Shown: in pieces, positions 18,626-34,551 of the stretch
Numbering within the stretch: the first letter of the stretch is position 1
Layout of the letters: each line of letters begins with the position of its first letter
Source of the DNA: Limnohabitans sp.
GTDB taxonomy: Bacteria > Pseudomonadota > Gammaproteobacteria > Burkholderiales > Burkholderiaceae_C
DNA: 64,000 bases
NCBI RefSeq assembly: GCF_023910625.1
Contig: NZ_JAAVVW010000003.1
Span: forward strand, 806,001-870,000
Direction: 5' to 3'
The notes under the pieces: generated by a model
Database searches by the model: none
What the model was told of the DNA's origin: nothing
Seen by the model: the letters and a program-made list of their open reading frames with translations, nothing else
Program-made: the position numbers and the translations under genes

Positions 18626-18872
18626 AAAAAGGCACCAAATACCCGAAAGCGGCAAGCGCGGCCTTCAGACAACAACATCAAGCGACTGACCGGTCCAATC
18701 ACATCCCTGTTTTTACGCAAAACTCGTATAAACCTCGCGTGAGAAATTTTTGGGGGTGGATGGACATAGGTGCAGAGGATCCCATAATGAAGATATCCAC
18801 GGATTGATGGGTTCTGAATGCCTAGTAGTTCGTTCCATCAATACAGTTACTAAATAGATGATAATCGCTATG
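18626..18872. other. Non-coding gap between hemH and the IS element
   Basis: About 245 bp with no convincing gene, RNA or terminator on either strand. It becomes AT-rich towards the insertion sequence. It is the left junction of the accessory island. Confidence 0.4.
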
Positions 18873-19839: not shown

Positions 19840-19961
19840 GACAAGGCTTCCGGGTGGACTGCTGAGGTGACGCAAAGATTGTCTATCAACTGCCGCATGA
19901 CCTCTCTGGCCATGAACAGCGGATACCGTTTTGAGTCAATGCAATCATCCGGGATGCGACA
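18873..19961 (-). mobile_element. IS481-family insertion sequence, apparently intact
   Basis: Terminal inverted repeats TGTCGCATCCCGGATGAT (18873-18890, and the reverse complement ending at 19961) bound a 1089-bp element with one transposase gene. The flanks (…CGCTATG and GGTACCG…) show no clear target-site duplication, so one side may have been rearranged. The right end abuts a decayed SnoaL-like gene. A 3'-end remnant of the same element lies at 59.67-59.82 kb. Confidence 0.9.
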
Positions 19962-20627
19962 GGTACCGACACAGACAATCTTGCCAACAAACACACCGTC
20001 TTTTCGTCCATAAACGCTATCGCCGAGTCCAGCCCGTCGACGCTGTCGGCGAACCTGACCAGCATCTACCACCGGGATGCCAATTTGCTTCGCATCCCTG
20101 GAGCGAGTTGCGGGGCGTGAAAGCCATCTAGAGGGTGGTCTGGGGCCCTTATTGCATGCATTCCCTGACTTGGAGCGCCGGCACGCGAGCGTGATGGGTG
20201 GCGAACGCGAGGGGCGCGCCCATGTGGGCTTGGTCGGTCACCAGGCGGCAAATTTCCGGCGCGACAGGCACGGCATTCCGGCCACTGACCAGGCGATCTA
20301 CACTAGTTATGGGAATTCCACCAGATGGTGGACGGCTAGATCGTGCAGACCACGATGCTGCTTGATGTTCACGACGTGATCCAGCAGGCGTTTTCTGCCA
20401 CCGGCGGCTGGCCAAGCCGTCACATGCTGCACCAGGGCGGTGCTTGGCTTGGTCTGGGCGCCACTGACCGGGCGGTCACCATGCGGGTGATGGATTTTTA
20501 CAACGCAGATGCCGGACTGATCCGCGAGAACTGGGTGCCTATCGATATTCTCAACGTTCTTCTGCAGATTGACGTGGACGTGCTGGCGCGTGTACGCAGC
20601 CAGTTTGGGCGACGCCCGGCCCATTAA
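19962..20627 (+). pseudogene. Decayed SnoaL-like (ester-cyclase-type) gene, truncated by the IS
   Basis: Pieces of one protein appear in shifting frames: SIYHRDANLLRIP, then LLHAFPDLERRHASVMGGER, then EFHQMVDG-stop-IVQTTMLLDVH, and finally MDFYNADAGLIRENWVPIDI with VLARVRSQFGRRPAH. These resemble SnoaL-like ester cyclases (AFPDLE core and ENWVPIDI C-terminal strand). At least two frameshifts and one stop codon separate the pieces, and the 5' end stops at the IS481 boundary. The gene is clearly dead. The longest intact piece, 20343-20627, could still be called as a 94-residue ORF. Confidence 0.65.
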
Positions 20628-20670: not shown

Positions 20671-20690
20671 AATTGCATACGTATGCAATT
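20671..20690. promoter_or_regulatory. Perfect 20-bp palindrome (LacI-type operator candidate)
   Basis: AATTGCATACGTATGCAATT is fully self-complementary with a central CG, the architecture of LacI-family operators. It lies 60 bp upstream of the HisD/HpsN-like start, and a LacI-family regulator is encoded in the same operon. It is the most likely control site for this cluster. Confidence 0.7.
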
Positions 20691-20749
20691 CATTGACAAT
20701 TGAATCCCAAGCACCCCCCCCCATTAACTCAGCAAAGGTTCAACCAAAG

Positions 20750-22069
20750 ATGATCAGATACCTCAAACGCGGAAAAGATGCCCAAGGCCGTGCCGATGAC
20801 GATGTGCAAGTGCGCGCCACGGTGGAGCGCATCTTGAAAGATGTTGAGCAGCGCGGTGACGAGGCCGTGCGCGAGTACAGCCGCAAGTTCGACAACTGGG
20901 ACCCGTCCAGCTTCACGCTTGCACAGGGCGACATAGAAGCAGCCGTCAAGAAGCTGTCCCCCCGCGAATTGGAAGACATTCAGTTTGCCCAAAAGCAAAT
21001 CCGCAACTTCGCGCAGATCCAGCGCGACAGCATGAAAGACGTTGAAGTTGAAACCATGCCCGGCGTAGTGCTTGGCCACCGCCACATCCCGGTAAACGCA
21101 GCAGGCTGCTATGTGCCCGGCGGCAAGTACCCGCTCATTGCTTCGGCCCACATGAGTGTGCTCACGGCCAAAGTGGCTGGCGTCAAGCGCGTGGTATCCA
21201 CCGCCCCCCCGTTTGAGGGCGCGCCCCACCCTGCCATTGTGGCGGCCATGCATTTCGCTGGCGCAGACCAAATTCTGGTTCTTGGCGGCGTGCAGGCCGT
21301 GGCAGCGATGGCCATTGGCACGCAGTCGGTCGAGGCAGTCGACATGCTGGTCGGTCCGGGCAACATGTTTGTGGCCGAAGCCAAGCGCCAGTTGTATGGT
21401 CGCGTAGGCATTGACTTGTTCGCAGGACCCACAGAGACGCTTGTGATTGCCGATGAAACAGTAGATGGGGAAATGTGCGCTGTGGACCTGCTGGGGCAGG
21501 CCGAGCACGGCCCCACCTCCCCATCTGTACTGCTGACCAACTCGGAGAAGCTGGCCCACGATACCATGGCCGAAATTGAGCGCCAGCTCAAGATACTACC
21601 CACCGCAGCCATCGCGGCGAAGGCGTGGGACATCTATGGTGAAGTCATCGTCTGCGACAGCTATGAAGAGATGTTGGCCAAGGCCGATGAGATCGCCTCT
21701 GAACACGTGCAGGTGATGACCCGCGACCCAGACTACTTCTTGACCAACATGACCAACTACGGCGCGTTGTTTCTGGGGCCGCGTACCAATGTGAGTTTTG
21801 GTGACAAATGCATCGGCACCAACCACACGCTGCCAACCAACAAGAACGCACGCTACACCGGCGGCTTGTGGGTTGGAAAATTCCTCAAGACTTGTACGTA
21901 CCAAACGGTGTTGACCAACGAAGCATCTGCCATGGTGGGTGAATACTGCTCGCGCCTGTGCCACATGGAGAACTTCGCCGGGCACGGCGAGCAGGCCAAC
22001 CTGCGGGTGCGGCGTTACGGCACGCGCGCCGAGGTGCCCTGGTACCAACCGGTGCCAGCACTGCCATGA
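20750..22069 (+). CDS. HisD-family NAD-dependent dehydrogenase, HpsN (sulfopropanediol dehydrogenase)-like
   Basis: This 439-residue zinc enzyme belongs to the histidinol dehydrogenase family but sits outside any histidine operon. Its sequence ([41 protein letters not shown]) resembles the HpsN branch that oxidises 2,3-dihydroxypropane-1-sulfonate to sulfolactate. Zinc ligands Gln250, His253, Asp352 and His412 and catalytic Glu318-His319 are all visible. ATG 20750 is preferred over an in-frame TTG at 20693. It overlaps the next gene by 4 bp (ATGA). The family is secure; the substrate is inferred. Confidence 0.8.
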
Positions 22070-22851
22070 ATGCCGCCACCCACCGCACCCCACACCTGCG
22101 CACACCGTCATTCCGTCTTGACGGACGAACCGCGCTGGTCACCGGAGCCGGTCGTGGCATTGGCTCGGCCGCATCTCATGCGCTGGCCCAGGCCGGTGCG
22201 CATGTGTTTCTGGTGGCGCGCTCAGCGGGCGAGGTCGAGGCAGCCTGCTTGGACATCCGGGCTAATGGCGGGAAGGCGACGCCGGGCCAACTCGATGTGT
22301 CCGATGCCGCCGCTGTAAAGGCTTACATCGAGCAAAACGGGCCATTCGACATTCTGGTCAACAACGCTGGCACCAACCGCCCGTCACTGATCACCGACAT
22401 GCATGACACTGACTATGACAGTGTCATGGGGCTGAATGTTCGCGCCACCATGTTCGTCACCCGCGAGGTGGCACGCGGCATGATTGCTGAGGATCGCGGC
22501 GGCACCATCATTACGGTGTCTAGCCAGATGGGTCATGTGGGTGGTCCCAAGCGCAGTCTGTATTGCGCCAGCAAGCACGCGCTGGAGGGCATGACGAAAG
22601 CTTTGGCTTGGGAACTGGGGGCTCATCGAATTCGGGTCAATACCGTGTGCCCGACGTTCATCGAAACTCCCATGACCGCGCCCATGCTCGCCGACCCCCA
22701 ATTCCGCGCCTTTGCCGAGTCCGGCACGGCCTTTGGCCGGGTAGGACAACTGGAAGAAATCATGGGGGCCTTGGTGTTTCTGGCCTCGGATGCCAGCACG
22801 CTGGTGACGGGGTCTGCGCTGATGGTTGATGGTGGCTGGACGGCACGGTAA
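22066..22851 (+). CDS. Short-chain dehydrogenase/reductase
   Basis: This 261-residue classical SDR has the cofactor motif [11 protein letters not shown] near residue 30, NNAGTNRP, catalytic Ser in VSSQMG, Tyr and Lys in [10 protein letters not shown], and the C-terminal VDGGWTAR. It begins inside the stop codon of the HisD/HpsN-like gene, so the two are translationally coupled and probably act on the same polyol or sulfonate. In known DHPS pathways an SDR interconverts enantiomers beside HpsN, which would fit here. Confidence 0.88.
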
Positions 22852-22860
22852 AGGTTCATC

Positions 22861-23883
22861 ATGGTCGCAGTCACCTCTCTTGACGTTGCCCGCCTGGCCC
22901 AGGTGTCTCAGTCTGCCGTGAGCCGGACCTACACGCCTGGCGCCAGCGTGTCCGAAGTGACACGAGCCAAAGTGGAGGACGCTGCCCGCAAACTAGGCTA
23001 CCGGCCCAATGCCATCGCGCGCAGCCTTATCACGCGGCGCAGCCACATGATTGCCGTGGTCATGTCTTATTTGGACAACCATTTCTACCCGGTGGTTCTC
23101 GAAAAGATCTCGCAAAGACTCCAGCGTGATGGGTACCACGTGTTGCTCTTTATTGCCGATACCCGCGATGTCGATACGGTTTTGTCCGACATTCTTCAAT
23201 ATCAGGTGGACGGCCTAGTGCTGGCATCAATATCGCTTTCCAGTGCCCTTGCCTTGCGGTGTTCCGAGGCCGGAATTCCGGTGGTGTTGTTCAACCGCAC
23301 GGCGCGCGAAAGCCAGAACTGCAGCTCGGTCACAAGCGATAACTACGAAGGTGGTCGGCTTATCGCACGTCACCTCGTGGAGACTGGGCATGAACGCATC
23401 GCGTTCATCGCGGGAACCGAGGACACCTCCACCAATCTGGACCGCGAACGTGGCTTTCTGGACTGTCTGGCAGAGCATGGGCGCCGCTGTTTCGCCCGGG
23501 CAGTGGGCAACTATGATTTTGAACAAGCCAAGACTGCTGCCAGGCACTTGTTCGCAGGCTCATCATTAAACCGCCCGGATGCCCTTTTTGTCGCCAATGA
23601 CCACATGGCGATTGCCGTGATGGACACCTTGCGCATCGAGCTTGGGCTTCGTATTCCTCTTGACTTGAGTGTGGTCGGCTTTGATAACGTTCGGCAGGCG
23701 GCCTGGGGCTCTTACCAGTTGACCTCGGTTGAGCAAGATGCCGACGCCATGATTGAGGCCACCACGCAGCTCCTGTTGAACCAAATTGATGGTGAAGTAA
23801 AAAGCAGTTCTGTGGTGCTGCCAGCGCGTCTGGTGGTGCGCGGCTCGACGCTGCGAAGAAACTCCCTGAAAGGGAAAAGATGA
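22861..23883 (+). CDS. LacI-family transcriptional regulator
   Basis: This 340-residue regulator has the N-terminal helix-turn-helix SLDVARLAQVSQSAVSRTY, the hinge YRPNAIARSLITRRS and a periplasmic-binding-protein-like effector domain ending VVGFDNVRQAAWGSYQLTSV. It starts 9 bp after the SDR and overlaps the next gene by 4 bp. It probably senses the pathway substrate and binds the 20-bp palindrome at 20671-20690. Confidence 0.9.
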   Translation: MVAVTSLDVARLAQVSQSAVSRTYTPGASVSEVTRAKVEDAARKLGYRPNAIARSLITRRSHMIAVVMSYLDNHFYPVVLEKISQRLQRDGYHVLLFIADTRDVDTVLSDILQYQVDGLVLASISLSSALALRCSEAGIPVVLFNRTARESQNCSSVTSDNYEGGRLIARHLVETGHERIAFIAGTEDTSTNLDRERGFLDCLAEHGRRCFARAVGNYDFEQAKTAARHLFAGSSLNRPDALFVANDHMAIAVMDTLRIELGLRIPLDLSVVGFDNVRQAAWGSYQLTSVEQDADAMIEATTQLLLNQIDGEVKSSSVVLPARLVVRGSTLRRNSLKGKR

Positions 23884-24944
23884 ATCCGCTTGTCACTCCT
23901 GCAGCCATTGAGTCTCGGACGTTTTGGCAGTCTGGAGCCATGCGCGGGTTTCAAACGGAGTTCAAGAATCTGGACCACTACATCCGGGTCATCACGGATC
24001 GGATCTGGGAAAAAAGGCGCATTGACGATATCAGGCTCTACTACAGTGATCCGTGCATCGTCGAAACCACCCTGAGTGTTTCTACCTCCATAGACGATGT
24101 GATCGCAGGGACACTCGCCACGCTGGCCATGTTTCCGGACCGCCGCCTGTTGGCCGAAGATGTCATCCAGTCAGGGGATGCCCAGGGTGGGTACTTGAGT
24201 TCGCACCGGATCATCTCCCCCATGACCCACTTCAGCGACGGAAGTTTTGGCAAGGCCACGGGTCGCAAAGTACACGCGCGCACGATTGCCGATTGCGTTT
24301 GCAAAGACAACCGCATCATTCACGAATGGCTGGTGCGAGACCATGCCGCCATTGCCCTGCAAATCGGCACCACACCGCGAGCCTTGGCTGAAAGTTGGCT
24401 GAAGCAGCGCGGCGGATGGCACAAGCCATCAGCCGGTCTGCCACCAGCCGGCTACGTACCGCACGTTGAAAATAACGAGCATGCGCAACAGTTTGCGTTA
24501 AGTGTGCAAGGTTTTGTGATGGGTGGAACCCAGGTCGAAACCACCTATGACGATGCGGCCCAAAGCATTGGTCCAGGCGAGCAAACCGCCTATGGCCACA
24601 CCGAAATCAGCGAGTTCTGGCACAGTGTGTTTGGTGGCTTTACCATTAATAGTTACGCCCTCGAACACTTGGCATGGCAAAGTGATGCCGCCCAAAGTGG
24701 CAAGCCCGACCGGGTGGCGATGCGATTCAGGGCCATTGGCAACTATTTGCAATCAAAGAATGCTCATAGCCATCGTGACTACTCAGTTGCTCGCTATGGA
24801 AAAGATAGCGCACAGGAAATTGAACTGCTCGGAATTGTGCATGCCGAATTCCGAGATGGACGCGTGATTCGGCAATGGGTTCTGTTGGATGATGTAGCGA
24901 TCTGGATGCAGATCCTAAATGCCGCAGCGCCGCCTGCCAACTGA
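23880..24944 (+). CDS. Two-domain SnoaL/NTF2-like protein
   Basis: This 354-residue protein has two SnoaL-like halves. The first covers about residues 30-165 (RIWEKRRIDDIRLYYSDPCI to EWLVRDHAAIALQ). The second covers about 205-345 (EFWHSVFGGFTINSYALEHL to QWVLLDDVAIWMQ). Such folds serve as cyclases, isomerases or dehydratases in small-molecule breakdown. It begins within the stop codon of the LacI gene and is the last intact gene of the operon. The exact reaction is unknown. Confidence 0.72.
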   Translation: MNPLVTPAAIESRTFWQSGAMRGFQTEFKNLDHYIRVITDRIWEKRRIDDIRLYYSDPCIVETTLSVSTSIDDVIAGTLATLAMFPDRRLLAEDVIQSGDAQGGYLSSHRIISPMTHFSDGSFGKATGRKVHARTIADCVCKDNRIIHEWLVRDHAAIALQIGTTPRALAESWLKQRGGWHKPSAGLPPAGYVPHVENNEHAQQFALSVQGFVMGGTQVETTYDDAAQSIGPGEQTAYGHTEISEFWHSVFGGFTINSYALEHLAWQSDAAQSGKPDRVAMRFRAIGNYLQSKNAHSHRDYSVARYGKDSAQEIELLGIVHAEFRDGRVIRQWVLLDDVAIWMQILNAAAPPAN

Positions 24945-24981
24945 CTTCATCGCTAGCCTATTCACGCCTCAAGACTTCACC

Positions 24982-25362
24982 GTGGCACGCATTGAACTCA
25001 AGAAAATCGTCAAACAATGGGGTGACGCGGTTGGCGTCAAACGCATGTCACTGGATATTGCTGATGGTGAGTTTCTTATGCTACTGGGCCCGTCGGGCTC
25101 CGGCAAGACGACAACCATGCGGATGGAGGCGAGACTGGAAAACTCCACCTCGGGCGACGAATCGATGGGCATTGCACCAGCGAGTCAGAAGCTCACAATG
25201 CGCAGCTTGGATTTCTGGCGTTGCGAAAGCAGCCTGATTCGTGAGAACTGGTTTCTGGTCGACTGGTTGAACGTCTACAAGCAGATTGGAGTGGGTGTAC
25301 TGGCCCGCATGCGCGAGTTCAACAAGGCACGATTTTTTCAAAATTTCCAAGGCTCCGCATGA
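24982..25362 (+). pseudogene. Chimeric remnant: ABC-transporter ATPase start fused to a SnoaL-like end
   Basis: From GTG 24982 the protein reads as the first ~50 residues of a sugar ABC ATPase (LDIADGEFLMLLGPSGSGKT). It then jumps after about 20 ambiguous residues to a SnoaL-like C-terminus (SLDFWRCESSLIRENW, VGVLARMREFNKARFF). No Q-loop, signature or Walker B is left, so it cannot work as an ATPase. The tail resembles the SnoaL pseudogene at 20.5-20.6 kb. A deletion that joined two genes of a once larger cluster explains it best. Confidence 0.7.
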
Positions 25363-26066
25363 AACCAACGCTTCTTTTGCTGCCAGGCACTCTTTGCGAT
25401 GGGAGGATTTTCAATGCTTTGAAGTGGCGGCTGAAGAAGGTCGTAAATGTGCAGGTTGCAGACTTGCAAAACTATAGCGATACGGATGCGCTGTGCAATA
25501 AATTGCTTGGGCAGCTACCGGAACACTTTTCGATGGCAGGGTTTTCGCTGGGTGGGCTTTTGGCGCTTGAGCTGCTGCGACGCGCACCTGTGCGTGTTGA
25601 ACGCATCGCCCTGATTGCAAGCAATGCCCGAGCGGGTAGCAAAGTTGGCCACCGCAAAAGTAAAACCTTGAAGAACCTCTGGTTCAGCGCAGGTCCAGTC
25701 AAAGTCTCTAGCCTTGTTTTGCCCAACTATTTTCACCACGAAATTTCGCGCCAGCGCCACGCGAACTTGGTGCAAGACATGGCCTTACGTACACCTCGCA
25801 GCGCGGCGTTTGCCCAGTTTGATTGGGCGGCGCATCGCCCCGATGGGCACGCCGTGTTAGCCGCTTTTGCGGGCCCGGTGTTGGTGGTGAGCGGTGCCAA
25901 GGACCGGCTTTGCCCACCACCCTGGCAGAGAGAATTGGTTGAAGCGCAGCCCCGGGCGCACTGGATCGAATTGCCTCGCGTCGGCCATTTCGTTCCGCTG
26001 GAAGCGCCAACATCTTTGGGTAAGGCTTTGCAAGGCTGGCTGCACACCCAAGGCGCAGCCAACTAA
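25359..26066 (+). CDS. Alpha/beta-hydrolase-fold protein
   Basis: This 235-residue hydrolase begins with LLLLPGTLCDGRIF (oxyanion region). The nucleophile elbow is GFSLGGLLAL, the acid is the Asp in SGAKDRLCPP and the base is the His in VGHFVPLEAP. It resembles small carboxylesterases or lactone hydrolases. The start overlaps the end of the chimeric remnant, and it converges with the lacI gene, overlapping it by 4 bp. Its substrate may be an ester or lactone of the neighbouring pathway. Confidence 0.85.
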   Translation: MKPTLLLLPGTLCDGRIFNALKWRLKKVVNVQVADLQNYSDTDALCNKLLGQLPEHFSMAGFSLGGLLALELLRRAPVRVERIALIASNARAGSKVGHRKSKTLKNLWFSAGPVKVSSLVLPNYFHHEISRQRHANLVQDMALRTPRSAAFAQFDWAAHRPDGHAVLAAFAGPVLVVSGAKDRLCPPPWQRELVEAQPRAHWIELPRVGHFVPLEAPTSLGKALQGWLHTQGAAN

Positions 26067-27106
26067 AGCACTTGCGCCTGCGGCAACAACTGGGCTGAAC
26101 CGCGCTCTATCAAGGTACCAGGCATGAGTAATTGGGGATGTGCCACATTCATTTCATCCACACTCTGACGAAACATCAGGCATGCAGCGCTTGCCATGTC
26201 TTCAGTGGGTTGGCGCACGGTAGAGAGCAAATAGGCAGGTCGGCGGCCAGCCGGGATGTCGTCAAACCCAACCACAGAAACATCTGTGGGCACGCGCATC
26301 ATCAGCCCAAATCGAGCAGCATCCAGCACTCCTAAGGCCATAGCGTCGTTGGCGCAAAAAATGACCTCGGGCCGCTTGCTGTCCGGATTCGCCTTGGACG
26401 GGCCAAGCAACTTAATGCCTGCCGCATGACCTGATTCGTAGTGGTAGTCCCCCTCAAATTTCTGGACCTTTTTGACCCCCAATTCCGCCAGTCGAGCAAG
26501 GAAATTGTTGACGCGCTCGGACGACACCGGCGCCTCGACAGGGCCAGTGACTACGGCAAATCGACGGTGGCCCGCTGCAAACAGGCGTGAGGCCAGCAAA
26601 CGGGCAGCGCTCGCGTGGTCACAGACCACACTCAGCGTCTTGGGGTCCGGGCTGTGCCGGTTGAAAAAGACGACCGGGCGCTGGCGTAAATGCGCTCGTG
26701 CGAGAGCAGCAACCGGCAAGCCTACACAGGACAAAATTCCGTCAACGCCAAACGCCAGGGCTTTGTCTAAAGCAGCGCTGCCCTCCAGTTCATGGGTGCA
26801 CGGGAAAAGCAAAGGATGAAAGCCCTGCTGCAGCAAGGATTGGTCGAGCAAGATCAACACCTCAGGCGTATCCCGCTGCGTCGCCTCTGTCAGCAACACG
26901 CCTGCCAGCCCGGAGCGCTTCGTAATCAGGCTGCGGGCCACTGCATTGGGTTGGTAGCCCAGCTCAGTTGCAGAAGCTAGAACCCGTGCCCGCGCAACTG
27001 CCGAAATCGGCGAGTCAGCCTGAAAGGCGCGCGATACCACCGCCTGCGATACCCCCGCGTGGCGCGCCACGTCGTAGGAGGTTGGAGAATTAAACTTTCT
27101 CCTCAT
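26063..27106 (-). CDS. LacI-family transcriptional regulator of the ABC/MetE-like operon
   Basis: This 347-residue regulator has the helix-turn-helix SYDVARHAGVSQAVVSRAF, the hinge YQPNAVARSLITKRSG and an effector domain ending SVVGFDDIPAGRRPAYLLST. It is divergent from the ABC transporter operon. The 125-bp intergenic region carries two near-identical TGAAWTCGAATTCA palindromes, one next to each start codon, consistent with control of both promoters. Confidence 0.92.
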   Translation of the reverse strand: MRRKFNSPTSYDVARHAGVSQAVVSRAFQADSPISAVARARVLASATELGYQPNAVARSLITKRSGLAGVLLTEATQRDTPEVLILLDQSLLQQGFHPLLFPCTHELEGSAALDKALAFGVDGILSCVGLPVAALARAHLRQRPVVFFNRHSPDPKTLSVVCDHASAARLLASRLFAAGHRRFAVVTGPVEAPVSSERVNNFLARLAELGVKKVQKFEGDYHYESGHAAGIKLLGPSKANPDSKRPEVIFCANDAMALGVLDAARFGLMMRVPTDVSVVGFDDIPAGRRPAYLLSTVRQPTEDMASAACLMFRQSVDEMNVAHPQLLMPGTLIERGSAQLLPQAQVL

Positions 27107-27108
27107 TT

Positions 27109-27122
27109 TGAAATCGAATTCA
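27109..27122. promoter_or_regulatory. Operator 1 of the divergent lacI/ABC region
   Basis: TGAAATCGAATTCA is a 12-of-14 match to the perfect palindrome at 27201-27214. It lies 2 bp upstream of the lacI start codon and is well placed for autorepression. Confidence 0.65.
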
Positions 27123-27146
27123 TATCAGGGTATTCCCGAAAAGTTA

Positions 27147-27175
27147 TTGATGTAAATCAGCTTCTAAAGTGTAAT
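27147..27175 (+). promoter_or_regulatory. Predicted sigma-70 promoter of the ABC operon
   Basis: TTGATG (27147-27152) and TGTAAT (27170-27175) are separated by 17 bp. They are followed about 25 bp later by the second operator, so a bound repressor would block the start of transcription. Confidence 0.45.
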
Positions 27176-27200
27176 TTGAAAATAAATTTTATCAAGTTTG

Positions 27201-27214
27201 TGAATTCGAATTCA
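27201..27214. promoter_or_regulatory. Operator 2 of the divergent lacI/ABC region (perfect palindrome)
   Basis: TGAATTCGAATTCA is a perfect 14-bp palindrome with central CG, 17 bp before the start of the substrate-binding protein. Its centre is 92 bp from operator 1. Confidence 0.7.
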
Positions 27215-27231
27215 ACCCTAAGGAGAAAATC

Positions 27232-28545
27232 ATGAAACGTCGCGGAATTCTTCAAGCCACCGCAGCTGGTATTGGTGGTGCCATGGCTCCTTGGGCGCTG
27301 GCCCAGGGCACGGGCGCTCTGAAACCGGGCAAGCCCTACGCAGGAACTGAAGTCAATTTGTTGACGGTTGTTGCGCCCCAGTTCAAAGCCCACGAGGCCA
27401 GGTTGGCAGAGTTTGAAGCGCTTACGGGAATCAAGGTCAAGTACCAATATGTGCCGTTCGCCAACACCCGCGAGAAGCTCACCGCCGAGCTGGTAGGACA
27501 AAGCTCCCAATACGACGTGCTCAGCACCATGGATGTCTGGGGACCGTCGCTCTACAACCTGTTTGAACCCCTCAACGGCATGCTCGCTGAGAAGAAGATT
27601 GATATCGAGTCGCGCTACCCCTATGCCCACGTAAGAGCCTCTCGCGACGGCAACGGCAATGGTAAAAACATTCTTGGCTTCCCTATCCGTGGGCATGTCC
27701 AGTTGATGTTCTACCGCAAGGACATTTTTGACAAGCTGGGCTTGAAGGCACCCAACACATGGGATGAGATGGTTGAGCAGGGCAAGCTGATTTCCTCGAA
27801 AACAGACCTGTCCGGCGTGGCCATGTACTACGGCAAGACAGCAGGCCAAAACCTGATGATCTGGTTCAACTACCTGTGGGGTGGCGGCGGCGATCTGCTG
27901 GATGCTAAAGGCCAGCCCGCCTTCAACAGCCCGGCCGGTATTGCCGCTACGCAAGCCTACATCGACGTCATGCTCAAGCACAAGGCAGCGCCAGCGGCGT
28001 CTGCGTCATTCAACGAAACGGACGCGGTGAACTCTATGGCCCAGGGCAAAAGCGCCATGGTGCCGGTTTGGTGGTGGCGCTATGCCAGTCTGGTTGACCC
28101 CAAGGTATCGACCCTCAAACCCGAGCAGGTTGCATTTGCGCCCTTACCAAGCATGCCCGGTAAGCCAAACACCACGTACACCAACACCTGGTTTTACGGC
28201 ATCAATAAGCACTCCAAGAAAAAGGCAGCCGCCATGGAGTACCTGACCTGGCTTTCCAACCCTGAAATTGAACGGGGTGTCTTGCTGGACAAGAGCATGA
28301 ACGAAGTTGTGGCGATGCAGACCAAAAACCTGCTCGATGCGGATGTGAATGTGCGCTACAAAGGCATGCATGTCTTTGCGGCACAGGCACTCAAGGGTGC
28401 CAAGGGCACACCGCTGTTTTCGCAATGGCCTCAGGTCAGCGACATTCTGGAGGCCAGCATCAGTGAGCTGGCCTCAGGCAAAGCACAGGTCAAGCCAACG
28501 CTGGATGGTGCAGCGGCCCGTGTACGCAAAGCCATGCGTGCGTGA
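27232..28545 (+). CDS. Carbohydrate-type ABC transporter substrate-binding protein
   Basis: This 437-residue periplasmic protein begins with a twin-Arg-like signal (MKRRGILQATAAGIGGAMAP…WALAQ). It has the type-1 extracellular solute-binding fold: VKYQYVPFANTREKLTAELV, TYTNTWFYGINKHSKKKAAA and the Trp-rich VPVWWWRYASL likely near the ligand pocket. CUT1-family binding proteins carry oligosaccharides, glycerol phosphates or sugar acids. An AAGGAG ribosome site precedes it. It is the first gene of a seven-gene operon. Confidence 0.92.
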   Translation: MKRRGILQATAAGIGGAMAPWALAQGTGALKPGKPYAGTEVNLLTVVAPQFKAHEARLAEFEALTGIKVKYQYVPFANTREKLTAELVGQSSQYDVLSTMDVWGPSLYNLFEPLNGMLAEKKIDIESRYPYAHVRASRDGNGNGKNILGFPIRGHVQLMFYRKDIFDKLGLKAPNTWDEMVEQGKLISSKTDLSGVAMYYGKTAGQNLMIWFNYLWGGGGDLLDAKGQPAFNSPAGIAATQAYIDVMLKHKAAPAASASFNETDAVNSMAQGKSAMVPVWWWRYASLVDPKVSTLKPEQVAFAPLPSMPGKPNTTYTNTWFYGINKHSKKKAAAMEYLTWLSNPEIERGVLLDKSMNEVVAMQTKNLLDADVNVRYKGMHVFAAQALKGAKGTPLFSQWPQVSDILEASISELASGKAQVKPTLDGAAARVRKAMRA

Positions 28546-29426
28546 TGAGCCGAATGCGCGTTCCTGTTCACTGGGTGCTGCTGGCACCCGCACTGCTGTT
28601 CGTGGGTGCCATGGCCTTTTTCCCGCTCGGATACTCGCTGATCCTGAGTTTCCGGGAGTGGAAACTGGCCAAGAGCAACACAGCAGGTGACTTTGTCGGC
28701 ATTTCGAATTACACCAACCTGCTCACCGATGACCCGGACTTTTTTGAAGCCATCCAGGTCACGGGCATTTTCATCGCGGCTGATGTGTTGATCACCGTGG
28801 CTGTGGCCCTTGCAGGTGCGTTGTTATTGCACCGAGCCGGTCGGCTCAATTCTTTGGCTCGCACATTGTTGATCCTGCCATTTGTCATGAGCCCGGCCTT
28901 GATCGGCATTTCATTCCGGTTCTTCCTGAATGCCGAGTACGGTGTTTTGGCGTATGCAGTTGGCTGGCTGGTGCCGGCCATGAAAGACACGGTTTGGCTG
29001 GCCGACTCCACATTGTCGATGGCGGCTCTTGTGGTGTCTGATGTGTGGCACTGGGCACCCTACATGATGCTGGTCATGCTGGGCGGCCTCGCATCCATTC
29101 CTGGCGAAACCCAAGAGGCCGCCCGCATTGACGGAGCCTCCAGTTGGGCTGTTTTTCGCGACATCACTTGGCCGCAGCTTTTGCCCGTCGTTAGCGTGAT
29201 CCTGGTTCTCAAAACCGTGTTTGCCCTCAAGGCGTTCGACACCATTTACACACTGACCAATGGTGGCCCGGGCAACTCCACCAAGACGCTGGCGTATTTT
29301 GTTTACGAACAAGGCTTCAACTATTACGACATGGGGTACGCCGCAGCTTCAGCCTATTTGCTTACCGCGGTGTTGCTGGTCATGGCGGGTTTTTACCTGC
29401 GGCTGATTTTTTCGAAAACCCGATAA
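28545..29426 (+). CDS. Sugar ABC transporter permease (MalF/UgpA-like)
   Basis: This 293-residue inner-membrane permease has six hydrophobic segments, starting with VHWVLLAPALLFVGAMAFFP. The coupling loop EAARIDGASSWAVFRDITWP is the EAA motif that docks on the ATPase. ATG 28545 overlaps the preceding stop codon; a GTG three bases upstream is also in frame. Confidence 0.92.
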   Translation: MSRMRVPVHWVLLAPALLFVGAMAFFPLGYSLILSFREWKLAKSNTAGDFVGISNYTNLLTDDPDFFEAIQVTGIFIAADVLITVAVALAGALLLHRAGRLNSLARTLLILPFVMSPALIGISFRFFLNAEYGVLAYAVGWLVPAMKDTVWLADSTLSMAALVVSDVWHWAPYMMLVMLGGLASIPGETQEAARIDGASSWAVFRDITWPQLLPVVSVILVLKTVFALKAFDTIYTLTNGGPGNSTKTLAYFVYEQGFNYYDMGYAAASAYLLTAVLLVMAGFYLRLIFSKTR

Positions 29427-29429
29427 GAC

Positions 29430-30308
29430 ATGATGACTGCATCAACTATTCAATCCCCGTCCCTCATCACCGGCTATCGATCTCCTGCAGATGAGGTGGT
29501 TCGCCACTGGCTAAGGCAACTGCTGGTGTTCATTGGCATTTGCGCCATCCTGCTGCCGATTGCCTGGATCACCCTTACGGCGTTCAAATTGCCGCGAGAT
29601 GTTTACACGTTGGACACGGCTTTCATCTTCACGCCGACCCTCGAGAACTTTTACACAGTGTTCCAACACCCCTGGAACCTGGGCTCCAAGATCATCAACA
29701 GCTTCGCTGTTGCGGGGGGCACCGTGTTGCTGGCGATACCCATGGCCACCATGGCTGCGTATGCTTTTTCCCGGTTTGATTTTCGTTTCAAGCGGACTAT
29801 TTTTTTGATCGTTATTGCATCGCAATTCATTCCCGCCGCAGTCATCGTGTTGCCCTACTTCCTGATGTTCAAACAGTTCGGTTTGTTGGATACCCGCACC
29901 GCCCTGGTGCTGGTCAACATGTCCATCGTGTTGCCTTATGCGGTTTGGATGATGAAGGGTTTCATCGACGCGGTACCGCTTGAAATTGAAGAATCGGCCA
30001 TGGTGGACGGTGCGCACCGCGCACGTGTGATTTGGGAGATCGTCGTGCCGGCAGCACTGCCCGGCATCATCACCGCGGCCGTTTTCAGTTTCACACTCAC
30101 GTGGAACGAGTTCCTCTTCGCCCTCATCATCAGCAAGCAGGATGCGCTCACCCTGCCCATTGGCCTGATCGGTTTCAGAACCGAGCGCGGCGACCTTTGG
30201 GAGCTGATGGCGGCCGGGGGCATTCTCATCACGGCACCCATGTTCATCATCTCCCTGCTTGTACAAAAGCAATTCATTCAGAGCCTGACCGCTGGCTCAG
30301 TGCGGTAA
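29430..30308 (+). CDS. Sugar ABC transporter permease (MalG/UgpE-like)
   Basis: This 292-residue second permease of the heterodimer has the first membrane segment LLVFIGICAILLPIAWITLT and the EAA loop IEESAMVDGAHRARVIWEIV. Typical SRFDFRFKRT and LTWNEFLFALI stretches follow. It lies 3 bp after the first permease. Confidence 0.92.
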   Translation: MMTASTIQSPSLITGYRSPADEVVRHWLRQLLVFIGICAILLPIAWITLTAFKLPRDVYTLDTAFIFTPTLENFYTVFQHPWNLGSKIINSFAVAGGTVLLAIPMATMAAYAFSRFDFRFKRTIFLIVIASQFIPAAVIVLPYFLMFKQFGLLDTRTALVLVNMSIVLPYAVWMMKGFIDAVPLEIEESAMVDGAHRARVIWEIVVPAALPGIITAAVFSFTLTWNEFLFALIISKQDALTLPIGLIGFRTERGDLWELMAAGGILITAPMFIISLLVQKQFIQSLTAGSVR

Positions 30309-30327
30309 GTTCCAGTCGGAAATCCCC

Positions 30328-31395
30328 ATGACACAAATTTCACTTCGCGGTCTGCACAAAACCTTTGGTACCACTCATGTGGTGCGTGACCTCAACCTGG
30401 ACATCGACGACCAGGAATTCCTTGTTTTGTTGGGTCCTTCAGGCTGCGGCAAAACCACCACCATGCGCATGGTGGCCGGGCTTGAGCAGGCCAGCCATGG
30501 CGAGATTGCCTTTGACGGCAAACGTATTAACGAGATACCAACCCAGCAGCGCGACGTGGCTATGGTGTTCCAGAACTATGGCCTTTACCCCCACATGACC
30601 GTGGCTGAGAACATTGCCTACCCGCTGAAGCTGCGTGGCGTCAGTACCGCTGACCGTGAGGCCGCAGTGCGTAAGGCAGCGGGCCGGGTTGAATTGGACC
30701 CGTATCTGCACCGCCGCCCACGCGAGTTGTCTGGTGGACAACGTCAACGGGTGGCATTGGCACGCAGCATTGTGCGTACCCCAAAAGTGTTCCTGATGGA
30801 TGAGCCCTTGAGCAACCTGGATGCCAAACTGCGCGTTGCCATGCGGGCTGAAATCAAGCACCTGGCCTACGAGTTGCAAGTCACCACCATCTATGTGACG
30901 CACGACCAAGTGGAGGCCATGACGCTGGCGAACCGGGTGGCGATCATGAAGGACGGGGTCATCATGCAACTTGCCTCGCCGGAAGAAATCTACAACGATC
31001 CAGTCAACCTTTATGTTGCTGGTTTCATTGGAAGCCCTGCCATGAATTTGTTGGCTGTCAATGCGCAAGGCGGCGCAGTCACGGCTGAAAACGGTGTCCC
31101 AATCAAGGTTACTGCACCGAGGCAGGGCGCACTCACCATGGGCATTCGCGCTGAAGACATGCAGATGGTCTCCAACGAGGAGGCTAACTTTTCAGCAGAG
31201 ATTTATGCCTTTGAGTTGATGGGTGACTCGACCATGATCACCTTCAAGTTTGGGCAAGCCGGGGTGGCAGTCAAGGGCGACAAGAACCTCAGGCTCAAGT
31301 TCGGCGACCGTGTGGGTGTGCGCATTGACACTTCACGGCTTTACTGGTTTGACAATGAATCCGGGGAAAGAATCCGATCAACACTTGGCCGTTGA
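30328..31395 (+). CDS. Sugar ABC transporter ATPase (MsmX/UgpC type)
   Basis: The 355-residue ATPase has Walker A GPSGCGKTTT, the Q-loop MVFQNYGLYPHMT, signature LSGGQRQRVALARS, Walker B VFLMDEPLSNLD and the switch His in YVTHDQ. A C-terminal OB-fold (TOBE-like) domain follows from about residue 235. It completes the transporter and overlaps a possible TTG start of the next gene. Confidence 0.94.
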   Translation: MTQISLRGLHKTFGTTHVVRDLNLDIDDQEFLVLLGPSGCGKTTTMRMVAGLEQASHGEIAFDGKRINEIPTQQRDVAMVFQNYGLYPHMTVAENIAYPLKLRGVSTADREAAVRKAAGRVELDPYLHRRPRELSGGQRQRVALARSIVRTPKVFLMDEPLSNLDAKLRVAMRAEIKHLAYELQVTTIYVTHDQVEAMTLANRVAIMKDGVIMQLASPEEIYNDPVNLYVAGFIGSPAMNLLAVNAQGGAVTAENGVPIKVTAPRQGALTMGIRAEDMQMVSNEEANFSAEIYAFELMGDSTMITFKFGQAGVAVKGDKNLRLKFGDRVGVRIDTSRLYWFDNESGERIRSTLGR

Positions 31396-31430
31396 ATTCG
31401 CAGACTGTGCACCAACTCTCAAAGAAACTC

Positions 31431-32594
31431 ATGCAGACTCCTTCACAATTAAAAAATCGGTTCATACCTTTCTCAAGCCTTGAATACTCCACAGAGGCTT
31501 TCATCGATTACTGTATTCCTGAATGCTCACCTAAGAAAAATTACGCTCTGATAGGGCCCGGTGTTTCTCAAAATCCTAACCAACCGGTCAGTCTGCGTGA
31601 AAAGCACGGATTTCAAGTAGGGGGTGTTTCAATGCCACCGGGGAAAATCAACCCACCTCACATGCATTTCACCGCAGAAGTATTCATGTGTACCAAGGGC
31701 CAATGGGATCTTCAATGGGGCTTTAATCCAGAGCCCTTGAAGGCGCGCCTTGGTCCCGGTGACATTGCGAGTGTCCCAACCTGGATTTATCGAGGATTTC
31801 AAAATGTGGGGGAGGATGAGGGTTTCATGTTCACGGCCTTGGGCCAAGATGACACAGGCGGTATTTTGTGGGGACCGCAAACATTGCAGGCAGCTCGCGC
31901 TCATGGTGTCCACCTGACGGAGGATTACAGGATCATTGATGAGAATTCAGGGCAAATCTGGAATTCGAGCTCCATGAAGCGACTGCAACCGATGACCAAT
32001 ACGGAAATCAGTCAACTGAAGCATTGGCCGATTGAGGCAATGAAACAGCGAGTGGTGCGCCATTCCGAATTGGACTGGCAGTCGGACGCGCTTTTGGATG
32101 CTGTTGCTGATGCTGGTGGCGCTCAAATGGCCCCTGTGATTGGCTTGGGAATGAGTCAATCAAGATCTCACTGCGCGCCGATTCACAATGCTCATGGATT
32201 TTCCATCGAATGGTTACGAATACCTCCAGGGGGGCATGTAGCAGCCCATACTCTTTCAGAAAAGCAGGTGCTGTCCATCTATCAGGGGTCGCTGGCAATT
32301 CATGTCTCCTCTGATGTTCAAACCACAGCTCAAATGATTGCAACTGATCCCTTGTGCATTGCTCACGGACATTCTGATGCTTGGGACAGTTTTGCAATGC
32401 CAGGCGAAGTATGGCGATGTCTCCGTAATGTCGGTGATGTTCCTGTTGCGGTGCTGGTGATGACGCCAGGTGATTCGCGCAAAATAATCCAATGGGTACC
32501 TGAAGTGGTGGATGCCGCAGGTCGAGCAGGCTATTCAATCGATGCCAATGGATATGTCGCCATGAAAAGATTTACTGATAGGTCACAACGATGA
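31431..32594 (+). CDS. Two-domain cupin protein
   Basis: This 387-residue bicupin has a first cupin motif near residue 70 (PPHMHFTAEVFMCTKG, giving His-X-His and Glu ligands). The second half (WLRIPPGGHVAAHTLSEKQV, then IYQGSLAIHVSS) has lost part of the usual His set. ATG 31431 is used; a TTG at 31392 overlapping the ATPase stop is possible. Cupins include sugar isomerases, dioxygenases and lyases. The DNA is more AT-rich than the ABC genes upstream, suggesting separate origin. Function unassigned, but operon position implies a catabolic step. Confidence 0.78.
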   Translation: MQTPSQLKNRFIPFSSLEYSTEAFIDYCIPECSPKKNYALIGPGVSQNPNQPVSLREKHGFQVGGVSMPPGKINPPHMHFTAEVFMCTKGQWDLQWGFNPEPLKARLGPGDIASVPTWIYRGFQNVGEDEGFMFTALGQDDTGGILWGPQTLQAARAHGVHLTEDYRIIDENSGQIWNSSSMKRLQPMTNTEISQLKHWPIEAMKQRVVRHSELDWQSDALLDAVADAGGAQMAPVIGLGMSQSRSHCAPIHNAHGFSIEWLRIPPGGHVAAHTLSEKQVLSIYQGSLAIHVSSDVQTTAQMIATDPLCIAHGHSDAWDSFAMPGEVWRCLRNVGDVPVAVLVMTPGDSRKIIQWVPEVVDAAGRAGYSIDANGYVAMKRFTDRSQR

Positions 32595-33748
32595 ATAATA
32601 CCAATCGCATATTGACAACCCTGGTGGGCAGTCTGCCCAGGCCTGAAGCAGTTGTGGAGCAACTCTTCGCCCAAGACAGCGGTCTGAATTACAACGAGCA
32701 GCAGTTCGACAAACTCATGAAAGCTGAGGTGCTCAACGTAGTGACAAAGCAGAAGGACTCAGGTGTCGACGTCGTGAGCGACGGCGAGATGAGCAAAATC
32801 AGTTACGCGACCTATATCCGGCATAGGCTGACAGGTTTTGAAATTGGCGAAATGCCCCGCGCAACCCCTAAAGACCTCGATGATTTTCCTGACTTTAAAG
32901 AGCGACTCGCCAAATTAGGCGCTACGCCCAAATACCACAGACCTATTTGTACTGGCCCAATTGCCGTCAAAGACTTAAGTGGCCTGCATAAGGACATCGA
33001 CAACCTCAAAGCAGCATGTCAAGCGTCAGGCGTTGAACGAGGCTTCATGAACAGCGCCTCACCCGGTGTGATCGCCGTTTTTCAACCGAATCAATACTAC
33101 GCCAATCACGAAAAGTATCTGAGCGCATTGGCTGATGCCATGGCAGCAGAATATGAAGCTATTGTGGCTTCCGGTTTGGAGTTGCAAATCGATGCCCCTG
33201 ACTTGGCGATGGGCCGGCACATCCGGTTTCGTGACGCAAGTGATACTGAGTTCATGACCGCTGCTGAGCAGCAGGTTGAGGCCCTTAATCATGCTTTGCG
33301 CAACGTGCCCGCAGAGCGTGTGCGAATGCATATTTGCTGGGGCAACTACGAGGGGCCTCATCATCATGACATCGAACTCAAACGTATCATTGGCTTGGTT
33401 TGCAAAGCTAAACCTGCAACCATTTTGTTTGAAGGCGCTAATCCGCGCCATGCCCATGAATGGGAAGTCTGGGCGGATGCTCAGAAAAAAGGGCAATTGC
33501 CAGACAATAAAATTTTATGCCCTGGTGTACTGGACTCCGTCAACAACTTCATTGAGCATCCGCGCTTAATTGCGCAAAGACTGTTGACATATGCCAACAT
33601 TGTTGGGCGCGAAAGAATCATGGCCGGAACAGATTGTGGTTTTGGCACGTTTGCTGGTTATGGCGCAATTCACCCCTCTATTGGTTTCGCGAAACTCAAG
33701 TCCATGGCCGAAGGTGCAGCCATGGCATCTCAGGATCTCTGGTCATGA
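32591..33748 (+). CDS. MetE-like zinc-dependent methyl/alkyl-transfer protein (methionine synthase II family)
   Basis: The 385-residue protein corresponds to only the C-terminal catalytic barrel of cobalamin-independent methionine synthase. All four zinc ligands are visible: His247-X-Cys249 (MHICWGNYEG), Glu281 (ATILFEGANP) and Cys349 (AGTDCGFGTF). The family opening LVGSLPRP is present. The folate-binding N-terminal half is missing, so it is unlikely to be a true MetE. Relatives include epoxyalkane:coenzyme M transferases. It overlaps both neighbours by 4 bp, so it is an integral member of the pathway operon. Confidence 0.85.
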   Translation: MNNTNRILTTLVGSLPRPEAVVEQLFAQDSGLNYNEQQFDKLMKAEVLNVVTKQKDSGVDVVSDGEMSKISYATYIRHRLTGFEIGEMPRATPKDLDDFPDFKERLAKLGATPKYHRPICTGPIAVKDLSGLHKDIDNLKAACQASGVERGFMNSASPGVIAVFQPNQYYANHEKYLSALADAMAAEYEAIVASGLELQIDAPDLAMGRHIRFRDASDTEFMTAAEQQVEALNHALRNVPAERVRMHICWGNYEGPHHHDIELKRIIGLVCKAKPATILFEGANPRHAHEWEVWADAQKKGQLPDNKILCPGVLDSVNNFIEHPRLIAQRLLTYANIVGRERIMAGTDCGFGTFAGYGAIHPSIGFAKLKSMAEGAAMASQDLWS

Positions 33749-34551
33749 CAACACATGGAATTCATCCACTCGACACCCGTTTGAAAGAGGCCCTGCACAG
33801 CGGCAAAACTTTGCGAGGTGTTTTCAATGGACTTGCCTCACCTGCGATTGTCGAAATGTGCGCTTACGCAGGATTTGACTTCGTGGTTTTGGACAATGAA
33901 CACGGAATCGCAGATCTTGAGGTGACAGAAAACATGCTGCGTGCAGGTCGTGCCAGCGGTATTCCCATGGCTGTGCGCTGCTTAGAGCATGACATTCCTC
34001 GCATCCTAGATGCTGGGGCAGGTGGATTGAAGATTCCGATGGTCAATACCCCAGAACATGCTGCGGCTTTAGTGCAACGCGTGAAATACACTTTGCCACC
34101 CCATAGCTCAGGCATTCGTGGTGCGAGAGGCAGTGCTTTTAGCAGTCGCGCTGCAGGATACGGCGCGTTTGGCGGGCCCAGCCATACACAACGTAGTAAC
34201 GATGGCATTGCTTTGATCGTGATGATCGAGACACCGCAAGCCGTGGCCAATGCCGCTGCGATTGCCGCTGTGCCAGGCGTTGACAGTGTGTTCGTCGGCC
34301 CCAATGACCTGGCGCACAGCATGGGATGTGAGAACCGCTGGAGCGAACCAGCTGTTCAAGCGGCTATTGAAAGCACGCTGAAAGCAGTCGCCGCAGCTGG
34401 CAAATGTCCTGGCATTTTGGCTTTGACACCCGAAGAAGAAGACCGTTATGCATCTTGGGGAGCACGCTATTTTGCGAGTACGACTACTGGGCTCATCACC
34501 AAAGCTTTTCGCGAAGCGGTACAAGGCAACAAGAAAAATTTGGAATATTGA
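33745..34551 (+). CDS. HpcH/HpaI-family aldolase
   Basis: This 268-residue class II aldolase splits 2-keto-3-deoxy (or 4-hydroxy-2-oxo) acids into pyruvate and an aldehyde. Visible motifs are GVFNGLASPAIVEM, VVLDNEHGIADLE with a metal-site Glu, IVMIETPQAV with the second Glu, and VFVGPNDLAHSMG. The start ATG overlaps the stop of the MetE-like gene. It is the last gene of the operon and points to a 2-oxo-acid intermediate derived from a sugar-like compound. Confidence 0.9.
   Translation: MTTHGIHPLDTRLKEALHSGKTLRGVFNGLASPAIVEMCAYAGFDFVVLDNEHGIADLEVTENMLRAGRASGIPMAVRCLEHDIPRILDAGAGGLKIPMVNTPEHAAALVQRVKYTLPPHSSGIRGARGSAFSSRAAGYGAFGGPSHTQRSNDGIALIVMIETPQAVANAAAIAAVPGVDSVFVGPNDLAHSMGCENRWSEPAVQAAIESTLKAVAAAGKCPGILALTPEEEDRYASWGARYFASTTTGLITKAFREAVQGNKKNLEY

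Follow-up and report, generated by a model that had tools for sequence, protein, structure and literature searches.

A putative catabolic cassette of Limnohabitans combining a CUT1 importer with a bicupin, a core-MetE-like protein and an HpaI-family aldolase

Related systems

The sulfo-Entner-Doudoroff (sulfo-ED) and non-phosphorylated L-rhamnose pathways proceed through a dehydrogenase, a lactonase or hydrolase and an HpaI-type aldolase, followed by oxidation of the released aldehyde. A gene cassette with some likeness to these routes was analysed in a window of 64,000 nucleotides, by which is meant the whole stretch of DNA studied (G000:C3:806001-870000), from the 3.17 Mb genome of a Limnohabitans species. 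At 26063-34551 the window encodes a LacI regulator (LacI2), a CUT1 importer, a bicupin, a core-MetE-like zinc protein and an aldolase of the HpcH/HpaI family (HpaI). A second LacI-controlled set adjoins this block at 20673-26066 and encodes a HisD-like dehydrogenase, a short-chain dehydrogenase/reductase (SDR), LacI1, a tandem NTF2 protein and an alpha/beta hydrolase (ABH). Judged from the sequence, the cassette may be an accessory catabolic set for a sugar-like compound degraded along an Entner-Doudoroff-like route, a reading that we prefer only tentatively. The proposed scheme would share with the described routes the dehydrogenase, the hydrolase, the HpaI-type aldolase and the oxidation of the aldehyde, and resembles sulfo-ED minus the sulfonate. 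Unlike them, the clusters show a cupin for the dehydratase of known family, a HisD-like enzyme for the oxidation and NTF2 proteins, and that of the window also has the MetE-like protein.

The HisD-like protein belongs to the same family as HpsN, the dihydroxypropanesulfonate (DHPS) 3-dehydrogenase, and its best solved relatives are sulfopropanediol 3-dehydrogenases of this type (394.7 bits). The zinc protein resembles core-MetE methionine synthase, of which an extract of PMC7005905 describes the zinc motif: both are a single MetE barrel without the folate-binding N-terminal half and carry HxC, Glu and Cys as zinc ligands. Unlike core-MetE, the protein of the window sits in a catabolic operon, and it is set beside core-MetE by description, with no direct sequence comparison. 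The threonate/erythronate (Otn) pathway offers a further comparison, as otnK and an otnC-like gene adjoin genes of this set on certain plasmids; the window cluster differs in having no otn genes, with HisD and SDR instead.

Full-text literature searches by gene-family names returned no pathway described with this set, in keeping with the preliminary description of the locus; subscription papers and preprints lay outside their scope, which makes this weak evidence. A LacI-regulated pathway with an importer and an aldolase is of a known kind, whereas the combination and its spread appear undescribed. Its testable handles are a cupin of unassigned reaction, an HpsN-like clade of the non-sulfonate kind and a MetE-like protein with a link to catabolism.

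Gene set and distribution

All eight genes that the preliminary description had placed at 26063-34551 were found there, each with at least one Pfam match above the curated cut-off. The seven plus-strand genes of the LacI2 operon span 27232-34551 and are as closely packed as had been claimed, with overlaps of 4 bp between the solute-binding protein (SBP) gene and that of permease 1, between the ATPase and bicupin genes and between the bicupin and MetE-like genes, and of 7 bp between the MetE-like and HpaI genes, given the inferred HpaI start at 33742. The SBP, both permeases and the UgpC/MalK-type ATPase scored above cut-off, identifying a CUT1 importer. The nearest solved relatives of the SBP are sugar- or polyol-type binding proteins, with SmoF among its relatives.

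The nearest named relatives of the bicupin belong to metagenome-assembled genomes (MAGs) of Comamonadaceae, Limnohabitans and Rhodoferax. Bicupin relatives were found in 26 genome loci, and partners were sought in these, including those cut by a contig or fetch end, by tblastn with the window proteins at E ≤1e-6. This gave HpaI in 14, the MetE-like gene in 13, ABH in 15 and HisD of the pathway clade in 16, the last count excluding a 36% match in L051. Bicupin, MetE-like and HpaI genes occurred together in seven loci. Two further queries, a second HpaI and an RraA, brought the HpaI-type aldolases to 15 loci and matched RraA-type aldolases in five (L048, L050, L051, L052 and L054), so that 20 of the 26 have one or the other. 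The RraA gene lies beside the bicupin gene in L050 and L051; RraA is the annotated aldolase in Octadecabacter, Roseibium and Sinorhizobium, and that of L052 was checked with Pfam.

A sample of 299 genomes of the phylum contained the bicupin in 15 and the MetE-like gene in 19, the Limnohabitans genome being in both counts. Without it, 11 of the 14 bicupin genomes had the MetE-like gene against an expectation of 0.85 (hypergeometric 3e-13), the samples for the two genes being taken as one set because their handles agree; nine of the 11 genomes belong to one family (f48), and the P value therefore overstates the independent evidence. In nine of the 11 (not in G330 or G354), no more than about 11 kb separates the two genes. 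Taken with the seven loci that hold all three enzymes, these figures bear out the co-occurrence of the last three genes that the preliminary description had set as a check. A sample of 150 genomes of the family gave the MetE-like gene in seven, the Limnohabitans genome included, at eight loci. Neither the bicupin nor clade HisD was found near two of these (L040 and L041), while locus L038 has HisD and no bicupin within the stretch fetched.

Plasmid regions (21) were opened from searches that gave 52, 39 and 52 records; they were chosen by hand rather than at random, three of them (L059, L062 and L093) were reached via other genes of the set, and the collection as a whole has incomplete gene tables. 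The cupin or bicupin of the set is present in 14 (L055-L059, L062, L066-L070, L093, L094 and L097), in each case with genes annotated as an alpha/beta hydrolase and as an aldolase of the HpaI or RraA type no more than about 7 kb away. Eight of the 14 have hisD, in L058 as an unannotated open reading frame (ORF), and a single one, that of Octadecabacter (L059), has the MetE-like gene, by tblastn as well. The remaining seven regions (L060, L061, L063, L064, L065, L095 and L096) have MetE-like or NTF2 genes and no cupin of the set.

Hosts with parts of the set include Burkholderiales MAGs, roseobacters, rhizobia, vibrios, enterobacteria, Deinococcus and a member of the Bacillota. In Priestia (Bacillota) and Deinococcus, one protein of about 207 aa makes up the cupin. 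Transporters differ among loci, being of the CUT1, MFS or TRAP type, with TonB receptors in L070 and, by Pfam, in L038 and an SSF symporter in L045. To judge from the sources of the hosts, such a spread may mean that the cassette consumes a common plant or algal compound.

Bicupin, aldolase and proposed route

Cupins that bind metal have the motif HxH...E...H, in which the third His lies in motif 2. Residues H90, H92 and E96 of the bicupin are invariant in 40 of 40 alignment rows, among which the window's protein stands twice. No HxH motif was seen in the second cupin domain. The structure model of the bicupin has a predicted local distance difference test score (pLDDT) of 79.

HpaI-family aldolases catalyse the retro-aldol cleavage of 4-hydroxy-2-oxo acids. 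The aldolase of the window falls within the HpcH/HpaI superfamily (PF03328, 103.9 bits) and outside the HpaI equivalog (163.5 bits against 368.8 for TIGR02311); the models for GarL and 2-keto-3-deoxy-L-rhamnonate aldolase likewise scored below cut-off. In L036 (11917-12417) and L037 (11933-12427) the HpaI gene is followed by that of a small P-loop kinase, gluconokinase-like by eye and assigned to shikimate kinase/AAA by Pfam.

According to the proposed scheme, the SDR would oxidise the imported compound and ABH would open a lactone or ester. By elimination or isomerisation, the bicupin would give a 4-hydroxy-2-oxo (2-oxo-3-deoxy) acid, which an aldolase of the HpaI or RraA type would cleave to pyruvate together with a short hydroxyaldehyde or an oxo acid, and the HisD-like enzyme would oxidise a terminal CH(OH)-CHO or CH(OH)-CH2OH group to a hydroxy acid. 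The MetE-like protein would form methionine by methylating homocysteine, the methyl group coming from the substrate or a C1 carrier. For the LacI2 block by itself, the imported compound would have to be an acid or lactone from the start. The plasmid clusters opened have no known sugar-acid dehydratase among their annotated pathway genes; in the Klebsiella cluster the only genes so annotated, besides LacI and two phosphatase pieces, are HisD, SDR, MFS, ABH, HpaI and bicupin. Provided that the aldolase acts as others of its family do, the lack of an annotated dehydratase and this short list of enzymes together make the bicupin the best candidate for the missing step.

Several observations weigh against such a route. 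Dehydratase chemistry in the bicupin is a guess: the usual third metal His of motif 2 is replaced by Arg134 in 40 of 40 rows, which places the protein outside the HxH...E...H metal cupins, and its fold matches were generic, many bicupins tying at Z ~20 and pointing to no function (oxalate decarboxylase, gentisate/salicylate dioxygenase and quercetinase were considered). Where the LacI2 block occurs alone, the pathway HisD is missing and the full route would be impossible there, SDR and ABH not having been sought elsewhere in those genomes; among the four lone-block loci ABH is present in one (L006), which is without the MetE-like gene. Neither aldolase type was matched in six of the 26 genome loci (L004, L010, L045, L047, L049 and L053), of which the sequence of L004 ends shortly past its MetE-like gene and L010 gave no HpaI by tblastn at E 1e-6, while L049 shows no core partner whatever by tblastn. 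In L055, L066, L068 and L094, on plasmids of Vibrio, Salinivibrio, Thioclava and Ensifer, bicupin, HpaI and ABH genes stand beside otnK and an otnC-like aldolase gene and not beside hisD; these neighbours suggest a C4 product, which the scheme does not predict. As to the methyl transfer, an extract of PMC12478193 calls the function of core-MetE homologues in aerobic marine bacteria, which may be of another family than the protein here, questionable.

The same otn neighbourhoods would be accounted for if the cassette served an ordinary sugar-acid or polyol pathway, in which a known compound such as a tetronate, ulosonate or deoxy-sugar acid is degraded by unusual enzyme families. We consider this somewhat unlikely. 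Importers of the CUT1 type, LacI regulators and HpaI-type aldolases are characteristic of pathways for sugar acids, and the SBP has its best solved relatives among proteins that bind sugars or polyols, but the window cluster has no match to any known sugar-acid dehydratase or sugar kinase and the literature searches yielded none. Ascorbate cleavage, Kdo-type ulosonates, betaine-lipid head groups, arsenosugars and O-methyl sugars were weighed on chemistry only, and no support was found for any of them.

The preferred reading of an accessory sugar-like catabolic set can be widened to a pathway present across several phyla, in which a cupin with a 2-His-1-Glu site plus Arg replaces the ED-type dehydratase, the aldolase is of the HpaI or RraA type, oxidation is HpsN-like and, in some lineages, a core-MetE-like protein harvests a methyl group from the substrate directly as methionine; in this full form it is doubtful.

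The MetE-like protein

In a profile comparison with hhalign, the MetE-like protein aligned to the C-terminal half of E. coli MetE over 317 columns at 22% identity (probability 97.4, E 1.5e-11). E. coli residues S433, E484, D599, H641, C643, E665 and C726, which we take to bind homocysteine and zinc, correspond to S14, E66, D201, H247, C249, E281 and C349 of the window protein. All seven are invariant in 38 of 38 alignment rows, in which the window is present twice and which were thinned for exact identity only. The catalytic barrel with these residues places the protein among the core-MetE-like proteins; it is not a full MetE (cobalamin-independent methionine synthase), scoring 24.7 bits against 929.95 for TIGR01371 and comprising 385 aa without the folate-binding N-terminal half. 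Its structure model is poor (pLDDT 62.5). Because the whole checked homocysteine site is kept, transfer of a methyl (or alkyl) group to homocysteine is the likeliest reaction, likelier than cleavage of a C-S or C-O bond. The gene is optional in the set, occurring in 13 of the 26 genome loci and one of the 14 opened plasmid loci.

These features also bear on an unlikely alternative, namely that the protein is a core methionine synthase working for methionine supply, catabolism being left to the bicupin and HpaI (with ABH, HisD, SDR and NTF2). Its complete MetE catalytic site, the many pathway clusters without the gene and the metH C-terminal part of the Limnohabitans genome, which occupies three frames against one in relatives, would all agree with such a role. 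Five genomes (G110, G113, G064, G037 and G443), however, have the MetE-like gene despite a metH above the family cut-off, the Limnohabitans genome has another MetE-like gene, and the link to the bicupin lies far above chance, though relatedness inflates it. Moreover, a Phaeobacter mutant was methionine-auxotrophic despite a core-MetE homologue, as stated in an extract of PMC12478193. An extract of PMC12366255 proposes that such a gene, which like that of Phaeobacter may be of another family than the one considered here, might explain the residual growth of a bmt mutant.

The preliminary description had instead given the MetE-like protein a catalytic role of its own in the pathway, that of freeing an S- or O-alkyl group from the substrate by cleavage. 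This role does not sit well with the retention of all seven homocysteine and zinc residues, which fits transfer better, or with the absence of the gene from 13 of the 26 genome loci and 13 of the 14 opened cupin plasmid loci, and zinc-thiolates accept methyl groups poorly from a plain methyl ether. In favour of such a role are the operon shared with the other enzymes, the joint travel of these genes in L002, L003, L035 and the Octadecabacter cluster, and the methyl-handling setting of relatives in sphingomonads; the proposal as a whole is quite improbable. A function as an epoxyalkane:coenzyme M-transferase-type enzyme or C-S lyase was set aside on the kept homocysteine residues, with no direct comparison.

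The sphingomonad relatives (L063 and L064) lie near genes for an aminomethyltransferase-family protein and MetF, with PurU and FolD also in L063. Both neighbourhoods include a small NTF2 protein and an IclR regulator, and LigAB is present in L063, which points to a possible link with aromatic demethylation. MetE-like relatives on plasmids of Dietzia and Rhodococcus (L060 and L065) are accompanied, in identical gene order, by two oxygenases of the iron/2-oxoglutarate type and a YaaH transporter. The metH C-terminal part of the Limnohabitans genome lies at C3:2214600-2217229 (L105), with the N-terminal part encoded elsewhere; its split state reflects either gene decay or sequencing errors.

The HisD-like dehydrogenase

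HpsN has the motif G-R-Y-A/S-H, whose His126 binds the sulfonate, according to an extract of PMC11382572. In the window the corresponding motif is GGKYPL and in relatives GGKYPL, GGKFPM or GGRYPI; none of the 14 motifs readable in related loci ends in His, these having been matched by pattern without alignment to an HpsN sequence. The HisD-like protein is thus predicted to be without the sulfonate-recognising His of HpsN. As the extract of PMC11382572 has it, R-DHPS is oxidised by HpsN, which takes the aldehyde sulfolactaldehyde as well, and an HpsN-like enzyme could therefore act on an aldehyde. A sulfonate pathway (DHPS or a sulfosugar, with the HisD-like protein as HpsN in a sulfo-ED-like route), suggested by the HpsN match and by SmoF among the SBP relatives, was rejected as highly improbable on the missing His and since no sulfolactate or sulfite enzyme is annotated in the pathway clusters opened.

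A second HisD with an amidase or carbon-nitrogen hydrolase was seen in Pantoea, Roseibium, Novosphingobium and Deinococcus, and an amidase in Sinorhizobium and Priestia. In L056, L069, L070 and L062 the pathway genes have an ester cyclase nearby, along with a second HisD and an amidase or carbon-nitrogen hydrolase, which hints at an amide-bearing variant of the substrate.

Proposed assembly of the cassette from two blocks

The preliminary description called the 26063-34551 pathway self-contained. In support, the LacI2 block occurs by itself in G110 (L035), G442 (L002) and G443 (L003), and G446 (L006) has a variant of the block, in whose locus ABH is present and the MetE-like gene absent; no match for pathway-clade HisD or tandem NTF2 was found in these four genomes, whose only HisD match is of 36-37% identity (cf. 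37% in G087, of the same genus as the Limnohabitans genome). G110 is 98% complete, the sole one of the four for which a figure exists. The term is only partly right, since in the window the block adjoins a second LacI-controlled set whose genes accompany the bicupin in many relatives.

In trees, the bicupin, MetE-like protein and HpaI of the window group with those of L002, L003 and L035 (support 0.983, 0.939 and 1.0, respectively). L004, whose genome has clade HisD, stands next for the bicupin (0.864) and the MetE-like protein (0.996). The window HisD is closest to those of the L004 and L005 genomes (93% and 88%), and the ABH of L006 groups with that of L005, not with that of the window; trees of HisD and ABH cannot contrast the blocks directly, as L002, L003 and L035 are without either gene.

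The gene order of L005, L036 and L037 is HisD-SDR-LacI1-NTF2-ATPase-SBP-permease-permease-ABH-bicupin-HpaI, with a CUT1 transporter different from that of the window; a second NTF2 gene precedes ABH in L005, and the MetE-like gene lies between bicupin and HpaI in L036 and L037. Between the tandem NTF2 and ABH genes of the window, an ORF (24919-25362) consists of the first 59 aa of an ATPase and the last 75 aa of a second tandem NTF2 protein, matched by the L005 proteins in tblastn at 68% over 24982-25158 and at 64% over 25135-25359. The trees and this deletion scar suggest that two blocks were joined. On the simplest reading, the LacI2 block, which probably moves as a unit, appears to have been joined to a HisD block that lost its own importer. 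Since no match for the bicupin, MetE-like protein, clade HisD or tandem NTF2 was found in G087, the whole cassette looks accessory.

Operator-like sites and other features

LacI2 has the helix-turn-helix and sugar-binding domains of the LacI family, with palindromes in the divergent promoter. The matching operators of the preliminary description correspond to two near-identical palindromic putative sites in this promoter, which differ by one base (Table 1). At ≤2 mismatches, shuffled windows gave a mean of 0.15 such sites against the two observed, and two of 100 shuffles reached two. The pair recurs in the equivalent gap of L002, L003 and L035, and a single copy is present in L006. At ≤1 mismatch the Limnohabitans genome has three sites of this type, two being the window pair; the third is at C3:1041806 (L111), near which the 3 kb fetched revealed no gene of evident catabolic function.

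The putative LacI1 operator, TTGCATACGTATGCAA, is the only such site of the genome at ≤2 mismatches. Among 20 related loci searched at ≤3 mismatches, 14 have it, including those of Pantoea, Klebsiella (3 mismatches) and Octadecabacter; two of these 14, L102 and L103, duplicate the regions of L008 and L009, which are in the count as well. It was not found in the other six, of which L005, L036 and L037 start inside hisD and L048, L052 and L054 are genuine misses. Taken on its own, the window gives it no significance at ≤3 mismatches (expectation 0.20, with at least one in 18 of 100 shuffles); its support comes from being exact and recurrent and not from the window shuffles. The two adjoining blocks are thus predicted to be served by two LacI regulators with different putative operators.

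Table 1. Features of the cassette and its flank, in window positions.
Feature	Position	Strand	Basis or remark
Transposase-like ORF upstream of the decayed NTF2 gene	18868-19875	minus	label by eye
Decayed tandem NTF2 (SnoaL-like) gene, two frames	20098..20621	+	tblastn matches in frames 1 and 2; sequence
Putative LacI1 operator, perfect palindrome TTGCATACGTATGCAA	20673..20688		upstream of hisD
HisD-like dehydrogenase, HpsN-like clade	20693..22069	+	PF00815; motif GGKYPL
SDR dehydrogenase	22063..22851	+	PF13561/PF00106; start inferred
LacI1 regulator	22861..23883	+	PF13377, PF00356
Tandem NTF2 (SnoaL-like) protein; relatives annotated 'ester cyclase'	23880..24944	+	PF07366, PF12680
Deletion scar, 147-aa ORF: older ABC ATPase start fused to second tandem NTF2 end	24919..25362	+	tblastn with L005 proteins
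Alpha/beta hydrolase (ABH)	25359..26066	+	PF12697; near bicupin and aldolase in many relatives
LacI2 regulator	26063..27106	minus	PF13377, PF00356
Putative LacI2 operator, copy 1, TGAAATCGAATTCA	27109..27122		between lacI2 and SBP gene
Putative LacI2 operator, copy 2, perfect palindrome TGAATTCGAATTCA	27201..27214		between lacI2 and SBP gene
CUT1 solute-binding protein (SBP)	27232..28545	+	PF01547, 144 bits
CUT1 permease 1	28542..29426	+	PF00528
CUT1 permease 2	29430..30308	+	PF00528
UgpC-type ATPase	30328..31395	+	NF008653, 440.9 bits (cut-off 432)
Bicupin	31392..32594	+	PF07883
Core-MetE-like zinc protein, 385 aa	32591..33748	+	PF01717, 38.4 bits; hhalign to E. coli MetE
HpcH/HpaI-family aldolase, 269 aa	33742..34551	+	PF03328, 103.9 bits (cut-off 25); start inferred

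Among the related loci, L007, L038, L039 and L045 share a protein family of about 890 aa, the L038 member of which is a TonB-dependent receptor according to Pfam.

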